Source: Pezizomycotina sp. ARF18 (taxonomy: Eukaryota > Ascomycota). Taken from it: a DNA stretch of 64,000 bases. This document shows, in pieces, positions 7,917-28,784 of the stretch. The DNA is taken from positions 1-64,000 of the forward strand of contig AZLU01000013.1 in NCBI GenBank assembly GCA_002224055.1. The letters are read 5' to 3'. Position numbers and translations under genes: made by a program. Positions within the stretch are counted from its first letter, which is position 1, and each line of letters opens with the position of its first letter. Below the pieces are notes generated by a model. That model made no database searches. It had not been told where the DNA came from and was given only the letters and a program-made list of their open reading frames with translations.

Positions 7917-8766
7917 ATGGTAAGAACTTCGAATCTCGTGCGATATTTCCTTTTGGGTTCACGTGTATAGCTGGTGGAGAGATGGCGAACTGGGCGATGG
8001 ATTCAAGGTCGACATCTTCATGGGTGTTTTCTTTTCTGGGGAAATGCTCGGATTATTTCGAAACTGGTTCCTATCATAGAGCACGGGAGCTTGCCTACAA
8101 ACTGTTCTAGTCGACGTTGGGAGATAATGGAGAGATGGAAATTTGCTTTCGAGAGTGGACTTGATATGGGCCGCCGAAATACGTTGAATATTCTCCATAC
8201 AGGAGCTAATTGGAGCATGGCGATGTCATCTAGGTTAACGTCCCCAACCCGCAAGACTTACTGCAAGGGCAAGACCTGCAGGAAACACACCCAACACAAG
8301 GTCACCCAGTACAAGGCTGGCAAGGTACTCAGAAAACCACTTTCCAAACCATAACCGATCAAAAAAAAATAGTTCAACATATAATCAACATTGGATAGGA
8401 ACGAGGCGTTTGCTGATACAGGAGTTTGGTATATTGTTTTATAGGCTTCTCTTTTCGCCCAGGGAAAGAGACGTTACGACCGAAAGCAGTCCGGTTACGG
8501 AGTCAGACCAAGCCCGTGTTCCACAAGAAGGCGAAGACCACGAAGAAGATCGTCCTGAGATTAGAATGCACGAACTGCAAGACGAAAGAACCAGCTGGCC
8601 CTCAAGCGATGCAAGCACTTCGAGCTGGGGTACGAAAACACTCTCCAACGTTTCACTGGATTGCTCACCCTATCTTTCTGTCAGCGAGAACGACTGCTAA
8701 CTATTGTTCTTTTTCCCCCTCTCTAGTGGTGACAAGAAGACAAAGGGTGCCGCACTTGTTTTCTAA
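7917..8766 (+). CDS. RPL42: 60S ribosomal protein eL42 (former L44/L36a)
   Basis: eL42 is a zinc-binding large-subunit protein near the tRNA E-site. The ATG at 7917-7919 is followed at once by intron 1 (7920-8233, 314 nt). Exon 2 (8234-8324) gives VNVP then [18 protein letters not shown]. Exon 3 (8445-8629) gives [39 protein letters not shown] and the CTNC zinc pair. Exon 4 (8727-8766) ends [12 protein letters not shown]-stop. The expected length of about 106 residues is met. Three indels break the frame: two bases are missing after VNVP (about 8248), one G is missing in the GGA-GGT run (about 8502), and one A is extra in AAGACGAAAG (about 8586). Since the protein is essential, these are probably sequence errors. 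The Pro in TKPVFHK (yeast Pro56 position) is kept, the form linked to cycloheximide sensitivity. Confidence 0.95.
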
Positions 8767-9325
8767 ACCCATTCGCTTTTGTGCTATTTACTTGTCTTGT
8801 CCTTACGTGTTCTATTATCTCTTTTTAAACTGGGGTTTCTGGGTCTTTTGTTCTCATTTTCCTACTTACATACATCTTTTCTTAGCCTTTGGGTGTATTC
8901 ATCTTCTTCCTTTTATCTCCTTTAAATTCCAAGCATTTTGTTATTATAATAATAATAATGGTTTTTCGGTTTTTCTTTTCGTAAACCGGGTTTCTGACGA
9001 CGCTACTACAAATATACTCACATTTCTCGTCGCATTCTGCGGCAATTCACACAACATTCCTTAAATTTAAGTTTCAACTGCAGGCGAAAATAGGGGAAAT
9101 AAAGCAAATAATCAACGATACACTGTTGTCAAAGGTCGACATCTTCAAGCGAGCTCGAATTGTAAAGTTATACGTTCAGCGAAACGAATAATGGATATCT
9201 TGCAAGCATGAAACCAAAAGATCGATTAAAGTACACGCCACGTCATTTGTTCTCGCTTGCGCCCTCGTAGACACGCTGAGCACAAGGCAACACGCCTTCC
9301 GTAAAACTCTAAGACAATAATTACC

Positions 9326-21137: not shown

Positions 21138-24100
21138 ATGTTGAGACGAATAAGCTCTCCTGTATCCGTGCAGATAATTCGCTGCTCAGCAACTCGTCAA
21201 CAGGCTCGGACAGTGAAGATGAGGGTCAACGCCCAAGCCACACTGCCACCGCTTCGTCCTAAGAAGGTCTTTGAGGAAGCGAGTGTTATGCGCAAGCCCT
21301 CAGAGCTCTATTTTGCTTGTTCGTCCGAAGACGGCCTCGAAGACTCCGCAGACAGCAATGATGAGGTTGAATGGAATATGTCTCCACTAACACTGCCGAT
21401 GGTCAACAACGGCGCGGGCTGTTTATCGATCGAGTTGAAGGTAAGAGAACTTTGCGTATTCTCCTCATATTGCTTCACTATTGGATAATTACTATAATAT
21501 CATATTCTTTTTTTTCCCTTCCAAGTAGCTAAACAACACTAAATATATTTAATTATCATTAATTCTTCGATTACTTTCAATATGAAAAACAAAAAAGCCA
21601 AAGAAAAAATAAATAATTAATTTAAATATATAACCAAATACTTAAGTAACTAACACTTACTATTGGCCAAATAAAACAAATAGTTAGTGAACAGTCATTA
21701 TTAAATTATTGTTGTTCGTTTATTATTATTTTTAAATCTATTCATTTATTTTATTTATTCATTTATTATTATGATGATTATTATTTTTAAAAAAAAATAA
21801 ATCCCACAAAAATATTTAAAAAAAAATATCACACTCAGAATACTTCGTATATTTATTTATTTTTCACTATAATACTTGAACATCATTTTTTTTTTTTTTG
21901 CCCTTCTCTCTTTACCATGTTAAAACTATTCCATAAAGGATTTCTACAATCAACCGATTTCTTCATTTACCCTCTAACAATACCTTATTTCTAGTCTTCG
22001 CCAGTGGAAAATCTATCAACACTAAAAAACCTCCTACCTTGTCGACACTATCAGACCCATCGAAAGCAACGACTACCATAATAATTGACCGTTAAATGCT
22101 TTCAGGATTCTAGCGGAGGCTTCGAGGAAACAAGTGCAAACAAACATATTAGTGAAAGAGAAGAAGAAGAATCGACAAACGAATTCAGGAAGGAATTCCC
22201 AAGGAAGCCAATTGGAAAATTCTAAAGTAAAGTCAGAAAACATGCCGCCGATTGGAAGAATGTTAGGAGGGGGCTTCGGGCACGCTATTGGTGGCGTGAA
22301 CGACCCACTCAGAGAAGCGGTTCTTTTGTAATAGACGGGGCCGTGATGAGCAGCATCAAGCACCAGCGTCTGCTGCTTCTGAAAGCGAGTTCGACCTAAC
22401 CGAATCTTCGAGCGAAGAAATATCAGAGCCGGAGAGTGAAGAGATATCAGAGCCGGAGAGTGAGGAAGATGCCCCATACACCGGTTCAGAAAAGGAGAAC
22501 CGCGCTTCAAAGTCGAGACAAAAGGCCAAAAAGCCGGCAGCGGCCTACGCAGCAGAGAAAACCAAAAGCGAGAACAGGAGCTGTTGCTGAGAATAAAGTC
22601 GACGCGCCGATTGGGGCCGACAGAAATTTTGGAACCCGCCAACGGATTCGGATCTGCCTCCCTTGTACAAATCACCGACATCTTTACGGATATAGTTACC
22701 AGGACTCCAGAACTACAGGACCTTGCCAAACATTTGAATGGGCGAAAGTTGCGTTTGGCGACGATGTGCTCCGGCACGGAGAGTCCGTTGCTCGCTCTCA
22801 ATATGATTACCCATGCTATGAAGGAGCAATTCGACGTTTCATTCGAGATCGACCACCTTTTTCTCCTGCGAGATCGTCCCGTTCAAACAAGCATATATTG
22901 AACGCAATTTCAAGCCAAAGCTACTTTTCAGAGATATTCGGGAACTTGGAACGATGAAGCGTAAGTAGAGAATTATGCTCGATCTCTTAGTTTAATCGAC
23001 CTCTTTGCCTATTTTAGCGTGTTTCCATACTAGACGTTAACTAATATGACTGTGAACACACAAGGACTACCTGCTACGGCGCTCGAGTACCAGTACCAGG
23101 AGATTGCGATTTATTAGTCGCTGGTACTTCATGTGTCGACTACTCCGGTCTAAACAACAGCAAGAAGTCAATTACCGCCGGTGGTGAGTCTGGCGCCACA
23201 TTTTTCTCCATGATGAAATGGGTCAACAAACATCGCCCGAGAATCGTAATCGTGGAGAATGTCAGCAGCGCCCCTGGCCAAGAATGACTGCCGAGTTCAG
23301 AAACGCTGGCTATAAGTCAGAATTCTGCCGTTTCGACACCAAAGACTACTACATCCCGCACACGAGGAACCGTGGGTATTTGATTGCAATTAAATCGGAT
23401 TCTTCGAAGGTGACCGACCAGTGGATCAAGAAAGTGCAGAGCATGAAGCGACCAGCGTCCTGCACTTTGAGAGTTTCCTTTTTAGACCGCGATGACCCAA
23501 GAGCGTATGAGGCGTTTCAAAGGCTAGCGAATCGAACGACAGGAATAATCCCCCGTGGGACGCTTGCCAGATCAGACACGAGCGTGAGCGCCACAAATAC
23601 CAGCTTGGATCCCACCGACCTCTTTTGGGCGGGCAAGATGGTGCAAAGATGACACCCCCTAGCAATTTCATGTGTCATGGGTGGCTAAGCAGCCTGACCG
23701 CGTTGCCGATGCGATTGAAATCATGTACTTACGGAATGCCTTGGCAACGTTGACTCCTGTTATAAAACGTAAGTGCAAATTTATATTCATCCCACCCCCA
23801 CCCTTTTATTTCTCTCTACAAAACCAGTGCCAAGTATCTCAGCTAACATTACTCCTTACCTGTATAACAGCCAAATGTGGAACCTCTCCAAAATGTGGAC
23901 AGGAATATCGAAGGCTCAAGGTCTGGCATTTCTAGTTGCCTCACACCAACTGGTATTCCGTTCGTCACGACCCGCGGTGGGCCGTGCTGGGGTTGAAGCT
24001 CTTTCCCTGCAGGGACTTCCTGTCGAAACAGTTGCTGCTCACCCGGGAAACCGACTCCCAATTAATGGACCTTGCTGGAAACGCGATGAGTAGTACCGTG

Positions 24101-27100
24101 GTCGGCACATGTATTATTGCCGGTCTTCTCTCAGGAATCGACAGCTTGCCAAAAGGCGAATCTACCGCAATGGTCGGAGACGACGAAATTTCCGAGGATG
24201 TAGCAAATCACATTATCGGCGCCGAAGGACTTACACCTTCCCCTCTGGATCTCGGGTCACAATTCGCGTCGTTCAACTTGCTGGAGCTCCTTGAACAGGC
24301 TCGGCGTAGTGCCAGTCTCTGCGAATGCGAGGGAAGGACCAATCTCGTCCCTGCAAAAATTTTCAGGTGCAAGGATTGCGATTCCGTCGTTTGTGCTAAC
24401 TGACCTCAGAAGAAATTCGCCGGACTTGGATCTCTTGGCTGTATGGCGCTACTAAGGCGTTCGAATCCGAGTTACGTTTCAGAACTTTGAAGCGCGGTCG
24501 CCAGTGGACAGCATGTTACGAAGCTCCGTGCGCGCGCCTCGAGCTTTCTCTGGACCCCGCTCTGCCGGAGTGCGTCTCTTCTACATTGTACCACTGCTAG
24601 AGCCTGCAAAGAGCCCTCTTCGAGGCTGTTCGCTCGACCAGTTGCCCGTATGAGAATCGGACAACTGTTAGACAATGATAACCTGGTTTCTGGCTCATGG
24701 CGTTTGCCTACCGGTAACTGTCAACATCGATCTTCACATTAAAGGCCATGGTCCTCAAAATTCCTTCTTGGAAAAACTCACTCGGACTGGAAATGTACAA
24801 CGAGGAAATGGTCTGGTCCAAATTGGAGATAACCATGCCTGACACGGAAAAAGCAGATTCTTCGACGAACAACTACAAGGCATGTGGTCACTCCTACCAA
24901 AATGTGGTACTGCTTGCCGTGCCTTGCACCGGAAGGATAACGACACTCAAGGATCGAAGCCCTTGTTCCTCTTCTACGACCCTACTAAAGCCTCGGACCC
25001 AGGTCTCGATTCCTTTGTTGTATCGACGGACTGCAGGCGATAAGGTTCCAGAGTTGCGTCTCACAATTGCACAGATGGAGCCTTCTTGGAGTCCATCGAA
25101 TTCGGATGGTGTCGAGAAGGTAATTTGCAGCAGCAATGGCCTTTGGACGAGACTTACCTGCGCCAAGTTCGACCTATCCGTTCGTGGCAATGAACAATCC
25201 ATGACCGCCTTTGCTGGACCAAAAAGATTTCTGCACAGCATCACACCTGTCGCGAGGCCCCCGTTTTCTTCCTTGGACGAGACTTACCTGCGCCAAGTTC
25301 GACTATCCGTTCGTGCAGATGAAACAATCCATGCCGCCTTTGCTGGACCAGAAAAGATTTCTGCACAGCATCACACTGTCGCGAGCCCCCGTTTTCTTCC
25401 TGTCAGGCGATAAATTCTAACGTGTCAAAGTTGTTTCGAGCGACTGGGCCGAAGTCGAGCCAACGCAGGAGCGGAAGTTTCGCCTCTCTTTCTTGGCTGA
25501 CCGAGAGAACCAAGTCAATGGCACCATCCAGCGACTGGGCTGAGGTCCCTCAAGAATCTCTCGGTACTCACGATTGCCAACCTGTGCACCTACGCCTCCA
25601 CCCTTCGATGGCGTGAGACGCGCCAAAAATACGTACCTGTGGAAGACCCCGAAAAGGCAGCACCATACGAAGATCCTTGAAGAGCAGACCTAGCCCATGG
25701 ATGTCACAGGTTAGGCTGGTGAACGATAGATTGCTAGAGCTCCAGATAGATTAAACCTGACCACTCTTTGCCATCGAGCAATCAGCGCGCTCAGCGGACC
25801 AGCGAAACAGGTGTGTGGAAAATCGAGACGAATTACGTTCCGCGCGGTGGATTTGAACCTGGAGTCCTTCCAGCTGCACAGCAATAAAGACGATAAGCCA
25901 GCACAGCAGCCTCCGAACTTTAGGCTCTCACTCAGAAGGAACAGCTTCGGTCTTTGAGCTGGATGGTGAACAGGAATCAGGAAGCATTAGCCCATTCCAG
26001 GAGGAAGAAGATTGAAGCAGTTCACGAGCATATGTTATGGCGAGTCGCTGTTGAAAGTTTCGTGAGACCATATCCCGGAGGCATCTTGGCTGACGAAGTC
26101 GGTTTATGGCAAGACAGCTACTACACTCGGGTTGTTTTGACCATCAGCAAGGGCAGTATCAAACTCCGCCTGATAGTAAAGGGCGTATTCCCGTCAAGGC
26201 GACCCTTGTTATCGTCCCGGCTCATCTGACAAACCAATGGAGAGCCGAAGTGAGCAAATTTCTAGGAGATAGGAAGTACAAAGTTCTAGTGATCAAGACC
26301 GTTGGTGATCTGAACAAGCTTTCGATCAAGAATATCATGGACGCAGATCTAATTATCATGAGTTCAAGCTGTTTCAAGACCATACGTACCTAAAAACCTT
26401 GCGGCTTTGGCGGCAGCGTCGACGTACCCAACTGTATGACGGCGGTATGACCATTGGATTAGCGAACATTGGCGAAACTAGTCAATCAGACGCAGAGGCT
26501 GCAGCTGAAGGGCCACCGCGGTACTCACGGCCATTCGGTCTTTAGAAATCAACCCTCAAAAGACGAGGGTTGTCTCGGGGGAGTCCAAGAGGTTGGGGGT
26601 GCTGAATTATGGCAGCAATAAGCGCCAAACGCGCCAGCAACGCCCCACAAAATCTCGGAAACGTAAAGGATTAGATGACGACGATCAGACGACGACTCGG
26701 TACCGCTGCAAAGGGCAAAGCCTAAGGCAAGACGCGACAACGACCTATGGAATCTCGGCATGAAGGTAGTCCGAGACGATTGGACCCAAATCGCTCACCA
26801 CCTATCGAGAGTTTTACTTCAACCGTGTCGTCGTCGACGAGTTTACCTACAATTTCGACGACCCGAAGATCCAGACGAGTATTGTCAAGCTAGAGTCAAC
26901 GTACAAGTGGGTTCTCTCAGGTACCCCGCCTCTCGCGGACTTTGCAGATGTGAAAAACATTGCCCAGTACCTTGGTATCAACCTCGGGATTCACCACGAC
27001 TCAAATACCGGAAGCTTGGTACCGCATCTACTGATCGAAGTCTCGTCGAAGCTTTCCAATTCTTGAGATAAGAAGACCCCAACGTGCACGAAAATCGCCA

Positions 27101-28784
27101 TCAGGTTGCCCAACGCTTCTTGGACAAATTCATGCGGCAAAATACCCCAGAGTTTGCCGAAATTAAATGCGAAGAGCACCTATTCCATTTAATCTTCCAG
27201 CAGCAGAAATGGCGATTTATCTCGAACTTGATCATCACCTTGCATCTATCGGCGTGTTCTCGCGTCGCGTTCATAAGAAAGCTGGGTCTGACAAAATTGA
27301 TCGCCTTCACGAAGTTATAGGCGAAAGCTCTCCGCGGAGGAGGCACTGATGAAGAGATGCTCTCATTTCGATCTTCTCAAAATGTCTATTGATGATAGGA
27401 ATGGAAAGACTACGAACGCCTGTGAGGCTGTGTTTCAAGCGACGTCAAAAACAACTCGAAGAATAAGAAGAAATTTTCCAGGAGCTTCCAAACTTTACCA
27501 CATGCGCGACGAATACCTGAGAATCTCGGAGGTTTACGACGATGTACCCAACCTGGAACCCTGAATGCATTCCTCGCACGTCAAAGAGAAGCCATTCATG
27601 ATCCCGAAATATCACCTATCTACCATGACATCATCCGCAAGGCGGAGGACCCCAACGTCGTGCGAAGTACAATGACGATTCGGTTAAAGAAGAAAACCCA
27701 GATACACCGAGACCCAAAAAGAAGGCTAGAGTTGTTAAAGATGGCGACGAGGAAGATGACGATGGCGATCGGCAAATGCGCGACGTTATTAGGAGACGAC
27801 GGCAACACCCGGGACCAGGTCTTCGAGCTATTTGAGAAAATAAGCGCAATCACTCTCACCAGTTGCAACTCAGCAAAGAACTTCTCGCCAGGTGCAGATC
27901 ACTCCGTTATTTCGAGTGCATCAAAGATCTTCAAGCGCCAAATGCCACGAAAATGATAGTCCAATGTCCCAACTGCAACAAGGCCACACCATTTGAACAA
28001 CTAGCAATGACATCAATGCGGTCACAAGGCTGTGAGGAATGTGTCCGTCTTTGCGGCCGAAAAGAAGCATGCGTCGCCGAAAGATGGATTTCCTCTATCC
28101 CAAGGGAGACCGATGTAGTTGTATTGAAAGATCTGAGGTTAGATGATCAGGTATCTAGCCAGAAGGCTGCAAGACCATGCCGTATGGTCGAAAGATGCAC
28201 GAAGTGGTTGATCTTATCAAGTAAATTTATCTCCATATCACTACTTCTTCTTCCCCTTCCCTTTCCCTATATACTATAGTTTGAACCATTCCTAACAGTT
28301 CTATTCTTCTTCAGAAACAAAATCCCGGACGACGAAAGTTGTTCTCTTTGTTCAGTTCCCGGACCTTTTGGAAAAGTCGAAGGGGTTCTTCGGCAAAGTG
28401 GCATCTCAACTCAAAGGCTGAAAGGTTCTAAAAGTCAGACAGCTCGCCTTCTCGACGTTCCAAATAAATACGGGCCGAGTAGGATACCGGATCTTACTCC
28501 TCGAGCCACTTACCGAAGCGCAAGCGGTGCGAACATCACAAACGCGAACCACGTTATCTTCCTATCGCCCCTCTTGACGCCCACCAGCGACATCTATACA
28601 GCCTCCGAAACTCAAGCGATTTGGACGAGTGCGTCGCTTTGGACAGAAGAAAACAGTCCATGTTCATCGTTTTATAGCACTCGATACTATCGACATAACC
28701 ACATACAAAGAGCGAACTGGCAAGACGTCTCTTGAATATTATTATTCTCTACCTTTCCAGGATGTATATTGTTCATTTATTTAA
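21138..28784 (+). CDS. DNMT5: DNMT5-like cytosine methyltransferase / SNF2 ATPase, frame-disrupted
   Basis: DNMT5 enzymes couple an SNF2 ATPase to a C5-cytosine methyltransferase for maintenance CpG methylation. Motifs appear in the right order. The acidic N-terminus has two ISEPESEE repeats. Methyltransferase motif I is LRLATMCSGTESPLLALN (about 22750), followed by SCEIVPFKQAYIERNFKP. Motif IV is GTSCVDYSGLN with the catalytic Cys (about 23125). Motif VI is IVIVENV (about 23250), then DTKDYYIPHTRNRGYLIAI. Motifs IX-X give LALxGLP-like LSLQGLPVE and LMDLAGNAMSSTVVG (about 24065). A zinc cluster, CECEG..CKDCDSVVC, follows at about 24320. The SNF2 part has Walker A ILADEVGLGKTATTLGLF (about 26085, one extra T), VVVDEFT (about 26833), WVLSGTPP, then GANITNANHVIFLSPL and YTASETQAIGRVRRFGQ (about 28530-28650). 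A CPNCNKAT...CEEC cluster lies near 27965. Many one-base indels break the frame; all catalytic motifs survive. The stop is at 28784. The start at 21138 is a best guess. Confidence 0.88.
21441..22105 (+). other. Long AT-rich intron within the DNMT5-like gene
   Basis: The donor is AAG|GTAAGA at 21441 and the acceptor TTCAG at 22105. Joining them keeps the frame, SIELK to DSSGGFEETSANK. At 665 nt it is several times the other introns and very AT-rich (21500-21900, with TTATT/AATAAA repeats and a poly-T near 21887). An element insertion is possible, but no ends or coding parts are visible. Confidence 0.55.
25143..25400. repeat. Tandem duplication, two copies of about 130 bp, inside the DNMT5-like gene
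   Basis: Copy 1 is 25143-25272 and copy 2 is 25273-25400, both starting TTGGACGAGACTTACCTGCG and ending GTTTTCTTCC. Differences are almost all single-base gains or losses: GACCTATCC/GACTATCC, CATGACCGCC/CATGCCGCC, GGACCAAAAAG/GGACCAGAAAAG and CACACCTGTC/CACACTGTC. Copy 2 reads as protein in one frame (FDYPFVQMKQSM, then VFFLSGDKF). This looks like the same stretch entered twice with read errors. Confidence 0.9.

Follow-up and report, generated by a model that had tools for sequence, protein, structure and literature searches.

Identity of the locus

Does the frame-interrupted locus in the first 64 kb of contig C13 (hereafter the window) of the Pezizomycotina sp. ARF18 genome assembly (46.4 Mb, 408 contigs) encode a DNMT5, in which a DNA methyltransferase is fused to an SNF2 ATPase, and is this gene intact in the living fungus? 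Sequence comparison firmly supported the DNMT5 identity of the locus. We assign a probability of about 0.85 to the reading that it is a single DNMT5 gene of a known enzyme family, ordinary and intact in the living fungus, and that its breaks are indel errors of the assembly.

Three forward-strand frames running from 22401–22403 to about 28800, with stops read as X, were used as phmmer queries. Dnmt5 of Cryptococcus neoformans (CnDnmt5; PDB ID: 7r76_A) was the sole match at E ≤ 0.001 for each of them (E = 1.6e-54, 2.8e-44, and 2.1e-56), and the matched pieces of the three frames interleaved and were colinear along the reference. Frameshift-aware alignment with eight blocks of CnDnmt5 showed 607 identical residues among 1412 aligned codons (43%); identity ranged from 34% in the RING-like block to 63% in the methyltransferase block that contains motif I. 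The three methyltransferase blocks scored 300, 442, and 330 in this alignment, as against 24–50 for nine shuffled references, and chance motif matches were thus ruled out.

The original prediction, which was made from the sequence alone, had taken the GTSC form of motif IV as a DNMT5 trait and had proposed a search of the motif blocks against DNMT5 proteins. This search was run, and it bore out the identity: an 80-amino-acid fragment around GTSCVDYSGLNN (motif IV) matched Dnmt5 with E = 2.9e-24, whereas the next protein, DNMT1, reached 6.7e-05 or worse, an E-value gap of roughly 19 orders of magnitude in favour of Dnmt5. The GTSC form was common to the gene and CnDnmt5, whereas DNMT1 has the PPCQ form, in a comparison that covered PDB proteins only. 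A DNMT5-specific serine replacing phenylalanine is described in a passage of PMC9998398, where it is assigned to motif IV.

We also considered whether the locus consists of two genes, a methyltransferase beside an unrelated SNF2-RING gene of the Rad5/HLTF type, since an SNF2 part with a RING motif is also the layout of Rad8, as stated in part of PMC7862722. This arrangement is highly improbable and was refuted in the main by the middle region (24427–25727), which aligned over its full length to CnDnmt5 residues 877–1304; because the region between the two enzymatic parts aligns to Dnmt5 as well, we regard the locus as one fused gene. Moreover, the fragment containing DEFT and LSGTPP was far closer to Dnmt5 (7r76_A; E = 1.3e-14) than to Rad5 (E = 0.0081). 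Rad5/Rad8-type proteins share the SNF2 part with a RING motif, but here a methyltransferase stands in front of it, and a Rad5/Rad8 protein without methyltransferase fails to account for this domain and the colinear middle region.

The genome contained five matches to PF00145, of which three were located on C51, one in the DNMT5 gene, and one on C16. Since the matches elsewhere were confined to C51 and C16, the genome holds one DNMT5 methyltransferase domain. A second full DNMT5 gene was ruled out: a DNA search with 22401–28735 returned the query itself and a 204-bp stretch on C144, and PF00145 revealed no other DNMT5.

Organization of the gene

The methyltransferase motifs, a zinc cluster, and an SNF2 ATPase with a RING-like insert followed one another colinearly on the forward strand at about 22671–28784. 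CnDnmt5 (PDB IDs: 7r76, 7r77, 7r78, and 7t02, deposited as 'DNA repair protein Rad8') shows the same succession of methyltransferase, zinc cluster, SNF2 part, RING-like insert, and second SNF2 part, and shares the GTSCVDYS motif IV. The features are given below in window coordinates, with identities to CnDnmt5.

21138–21441, + strand: proposed first exon of the original prediction (52% guanine + cytosine [GC], coding-like composition, no homology shown); membership in the gene uncertain
21442–22104: AT-rich stretch (663 bp, 24.7% GC), representing a long initial intron or promoter-side sequence of DNMT5
22105–22670, + strand: acidic N-terminal stretch of low complexity ahead of the methyltransferase, recognized by composition; 24-bp repeat at 22410–22467
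22671–22950, + strand: methyltransferase block with motif I (92 codons, 63% identical)
22764–22781, + strand: motif I
22961–23064, + strand: probable intron, end approximate (GTAAGT at 22961; 36% GC at 22971–23064; homology again from 23069)
23069–23687, + strand: methyltransferase block with motifs IV, VI, and VIII (202 codons, 47% identical; PF00145 above cut-off in two fragments)
23123–23146, + strand: motif IV (GTSCVDYS)
23252–23263, + strand: motif VI (VENV)
23335–23364, + strand: motif VIII
23769–23870, + strand: probable intron (GTAAGT...CAG, branch-like motif at 23843)
23889–24394, + strand: C-terminal part of the methyltransferase with motif X and a Cys-rich zinc cluster (164 codons, 47% identical)
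24077–24088, + strand: motif X (GNAM)
24320–24379, + strand: CECEG/CKDC zinc cluster
24427–25727, + strand: middle region from methyltransferase to ATPase (396 codons, 36% identical; 12 frame breaks)
25143–25401, + strand: 130-bp tandem duplication (Tandem Repeats Finder, period 130), most likely an assembly artefact
25751–26297, + strand: first SNF2 part with split Walker A (170 codons, 46% identical; motifs)
26089–26119, + strand: Walker A region, with ADEVG and GKTA in different frames
26212–26413, + strand: SNF2 stretch with a partial copy on C144 (87% identity to C144:98361–98564)
26812–27447, + strand: SNF2 block with DEFT (motif II) and LSGTPP (motif III) (203 codons, 43% identical, one aligned stop)
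26836–26847, + strand: DEFT
26914–26931, + strand: LSGTPP
27845–28159, + strand: RING-like Cys cluster within the SNF2 part (103 codons, 34% identical to CnDnmt5 2007–2117)
27965–28042, + strand: second Cys cluster motif
28370–28784, + strand: second SNF2 part with GRVRRFGQ (motif VI), to the stop codon (placed by alignment to 28621, the motif, and the end of the open reading frame)
28623–28646, + strand: GRVRRFGQ

The methyltransferase and SNF2 motifs named by the original prediction were found on the forward strand in the order given there: motifs I, IV, VI, VIII, and X were all present, and the downstream-fused SNF2 ATPase carried motifs I, II, III, and VI. Other details required revision. 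Walker A had been called complete; both of its halves exist, but a break splits them across two frames of the assembly. Zinc clusters had been placed ahead of the SNF2 engine, which holds for the first (24320–24379), while the second (27845–28159), which is RING-like, separates the two SNF2 parts; its Cys pairs and 34% identity constitute a moderate match to CnDnmt5 2003–2119. The start at 21138 proved to be a guess, as 21442–22104 has a GC content of 24.7% and homology to Dnmt5 begins only at 22671 (Dnmt5 residue 292). The GC content of 22105–22970 was 48.7%. The tandem duplication at 25143–25401 had not been mentioned.

The longest stop-to-stop frame of the window comprised 341 amino acids. 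Among its 16 frames of 200 amino acids or more, ten had no Pfam match at E ≤ 0.001, one corresponded to eL42, two overlapped the DNMT5 gene, and three were outside the Pfam search. An Rfam search of the window at the gathering score returned no match.

Frame breaks in the assembly

Frame breaks were counted with the same alignment method throughout, using a frameshift penalty of −14 unless stated otherwise; the laxer penalty of −9 and a penalty of −20 were also run. As the control we used a single gene on C49, named mitochondrial Hsp70 (mtHsp70) by its best PDB matches and essential in yeast, which contained seven breaks in 1681 bp (4.2/kb) at all three penalties. The four best conserved DNMT5 blocks contained eight breaks in 2041 bp (3.9/kb) and were thus broken no more often than mtHsp70, and simulated intact genes showed none in 6246 bp. 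With the penalty of −9, the number of breaks rose to 11 in these blocks and to two in the simulated control (6216 bp).

The tandem duplication offered a direct gauge of local assembly error. Its copies aligned with 126 matches, no mismatches, and eight gap columns, and such indel-only differences look like read errors; as judged by eye, the CnDnmt5 protein fits only one copy of the 130-bp segment. Genes elsewhere were interrupted in a similar manner. The eL42 (Ribosomal_L44) gene of the window (about 8250–8770, + strand), located by its Pfam match, alternates between two frames, shifting twice inside a single exon over roughly 150 bp. We also took six conserved genes, each from a different contig and each selected for yielding three or more matched pieces (HSP70 homologues in five cases, an RNA polymerase subunit in the sixth). 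In their combined 10,255 bp the frame changed 28 times from one matched piece to the next, in some cases with an intron in between. HSP70 matches on C44 (two) and C10 (one), an overlapping match on C70, and the polymerase matches located on C82, C236, and C257 did not enter this count. The frame breaks therefore look mostly like assembly noise, and because other conserved genes of the assembly are broken alike, the DNMT5 gene is most likely intact in the living fungus. We infer that the assembly contains many indel errors and was built from unpolished long reads.

Several observations weigh against this reading. Some of them favour the rival view of a decaying DNMT5 pseudogene, whose breaks and stop would be genuine mutations and which would leave methylation of the genome entirely to another enzyme. 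The four less conserved DNMT5 blocks contained 17 breaks in 2415 bp (14 at −20), and their simulated intact controls none in 4872 and none in 4734 bp. The excess was most evident in the middle block, which also holds the 130-bp duplication: its 12 breaks in 1301 bp (9.2/kb; 11 breaks at −20) correspond to about twice the density of mtHsp70. All eight blocks together had 25 breaks in 4456 bp (5.6/kb), or 22 at −20 and 34 at −9. The conserved SNF2 block (203 codons) contained one aligned in-frame stop and the middle block another, or two at −20, as against none in 555 codons of mtHsp70. Walker A is interrupted by a break, long open frames of 733 (C216) and 879 (C257) amino acids exist elsewhere in the assembly, and the like-for-like control of the break rate is a single gene. 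Unlike CnDnmt5, the gene showed no chromodomain (none of the five genome matches was on contig C13; a frame-broken domain could escape detection). Dnmt5 loss is, in addition, common in some ascomycete classes according to a passage of PMC12543289.

Set against these points are the break rate of the best conserved blocks, the indel-only duplication, the retention of the catalytic motifs, and the 607 of 1412 aligned codons that are identical to a distant relative. In addition, CpA/TpG depletion was not seen in the gene (observed/expected ratio [o/e] 1.01), so it has not been mutated by repeat-induced point mutation (RIP). We consider a pseudogene improbable, and retain it above zero because of the middle-block breaks, the stops, the long open frames elsewhere, and the break in Walker A. 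The original prediction had dismissed the indels as noise and called the gene probably functional. The mtHsp70 break rate, the substitution-free duplication, and the eL42 frames agree with this view; the middle-block breaks, the SNF2 stop, and the long open frames leave it unproved.

The 879-amino-acid frame on C257 carried an RNA polymerase domain match (C257:16366–17040) and is unusually long for this assembly; C257 may be a cleaner or a foreign contig.

Partial copy of the SNF2 part

The 204-bp stretch on C144 (C144:98361–98564) was isolated and 87% identical to window positions 26212–26413. Ten of the 55 shared codons differed silently and seven changed the residue, giving a nonsynonymous divergence (dN) of about 0.06 and a synonymous divergence (dS) of 0.40–0.59. 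These values suggest, for a small sample of codons, more constraint than expected of a neutral fragment. The surrounding 19 kb of C144 revealed no further part of the DNMT5 gene, and three neighbouring frames had no Pfam family at E ≤ 0.1. The copy may be a duplicated fragment, the remains of a paralogue, or a product of misassembly.

Other methylation genes of the genome

The PF00145 gene on C51 combined a methyltransferase domain above the cut-off with two BAH-like matches, both below the Pfam cut-off (27.8 bits, E = 2.5e-6; 13.9 bits, E = 0.051). We class it as DIM-2-like, with a DNMT1-type enzyme as the alternative. The gene on C16 we take to be RID-like from its sequence. The SRA domain is the reader of hemimethylated CpG in UHRF1, and an SRA domain above the cut-off was located on C216 (C216:17044–17527, − strand), with its first half within the 733-amino-acid open frame; the gene has a long low-complexity N-terminal part and is a possible candidate for a UHRF1-like partner. 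A profile search for the CDCA7-type zinc finger (PF10497) gave no match, a null that says nothing on its presence.

The original prediction had described DNMT5 as patchy across ascomycetes. According to passages of PMC8091789, most ascomycetes encode both Dim2 and Dnmt5, and Dim2, Rid, and Dnmt5 together form the commonest ascomycete combination, so that the description calls for caution. Most Sordariomycetes have lost Dnmt5, as stated in part of PMC12543289. Because this gene set is the commonest one, the occurrence of DNMT5 here is ordinary. The DIM-2-like and RID-like genes, together with RIP and a small number of introns, point to a filamentous ascomycete.

RIP and CpG footprints

CpG o/e was 1.06 in both the window and the DNMT5 gene; with no genic footprint, CpG depletion was dropped as a sign of methylation. 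Two of 17 sampled sources held a stretch of extreme RIP, C144:90800–92049 and C350:1–3650, in which CpA accounted for 2.8% and 2.4% of C contexts, respectively, as against 24.8% in the window. CpG densities were 55 (C144), 40 (C350), and 53 (window) per kb. Three further stretches caught by the filter, one on C13 beyond the window and two on C380, were rejected as merely AT-rich (5–15% GC).

The C144 stretch is one of 21 genome matches to a transposon-like repeat family, many of them partial, and we compared it with three near full-length copies on C258, C163, and C111. CpA made up 2.8–5.2% of C contexts in these four copies and 2.4–5.2% in the five stretches including C350. Pairwise comparison, to which related copies contribute the same columns repeatedly, yielded 761 mismatches, of which 734 were of the C/T type: 370 in CpG, 174 in CpT, 109 in CpC, and 81 in CpA contexts. 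Those at CpG were mostly CpG against TpA, and 22 of 82 CpG columns were retained in all four copies. Erosion of CpG thus continues in copies that have already lost almost all of their CpA.

This erosion fits the decay of methylated CpG and equally a secondary preference of RIP, and does not separate DNMT5 from DIM-2; neither the CpG-concentrated C/T differences nor the partial SNF2 copy on C144 proves methylation. As a speculative and rather unlikely scheme, RIP and DNMT5 might share out the repeats: RIP would strip nearly all CpA and so make CpG the frequent symmetric site, DNMT5, perhaps with the SRA protein, would keep CpG methylated, and deamination would convert these sites to TpA copy by copy. 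The same pattern could arise from RIP site preference alone, or with DIM-2 as the methylating enzyme. According to part of PMC12543289, RIP is weaker in two of the fungi with this process that are believed to encode Dnmt5, a remark from which the strong footprint observed here departs.

Predicted mechanism and role

Hemimethylated CpG switches on the SNF2 ATPase of Dnmt5, which in turn opens the methyltransferase, according to passages of PMC13297926 and PMC7862722. The motifs needed for this mechanism are present in the predicted protein, with Walker A cut in the assembly, and by analogy this protein probably has the same mode of action as Cryptococcus Dnmt5. Its SNF2 motor would bind hemimethylated CpG DNA, ATP hydrolysis would open the C5-methyltransferase, and the motif IV cysteine would methylate the new strand, so that CpG marks on repeats could outlast replication. 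For these steps we infer that the reading frame is intact, that the gene is expressed, and that its product is enzymatically active and assisted by the SRA-domain protein and HP1.

The original prediction had expected robust CpG maintenance, which is too simple in light of Verticillium dahliae. Passages of PMC8091789 report that, in this fungus with the same gene set, Dim2 does most of the methylation and Dnmt5 contributes little. Since DIM-2-like and RID-like genes, which distinguish the present genome from C. neoformans, are also present here, DNMT5 is probably a secondary methyltransferase, as in V. dahliae, a likeness drawn by gene set. An intact DNMT5 whose main job is not methylation but, for example, ATP-dependent chromatin or repair work overlaps with our preferred reading and differs in the enzyme's job only. 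It is conceivable, if on balance doubtful. In V. dahliae, Dnmt5 deletion leaves methylation almost unchanged, and other DNA-associated roles have been speculated (passages of PMC8091789); the accompanying DIM-2-like and RID-like genes and the undetected chromodomain point in the same direction. On the other side, the methyltransferase keeps catalytic motifs that a purely structural role would not need, and the SRA-domain gene is of the type of CpG-methylation reader that assists CnDnmt5. PMC8091789 describes V. dahliae Dnmt5 as being without an N-terminal chromodomain, and an N-terminal chromodomain is not a defining feature of ascomycete DNMT5 members.

Zymoseptoria, likened here by description, combines RIP with a set of Dim2, Dnmt5, and Rid, according to part of PMC8016269, but differs in that Dim2 itself is inactivated in Z. 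tritici strains.

The locus also carries a lesson for genome annotation, namely that frame breaks should be gauged against other conserved genes of the same assembly before a gene is declared dead. A passage of a 2026 review (PMC13297926) lists as unknown whether, outside Cryptococcus, DNMT5 cooperates with a UHRF1-like adaptor, and the side findings could allow this question to be tested. For the family, the gene brings in a further ascomycete that has the common DIM-2, RID, and DNMT5 set.

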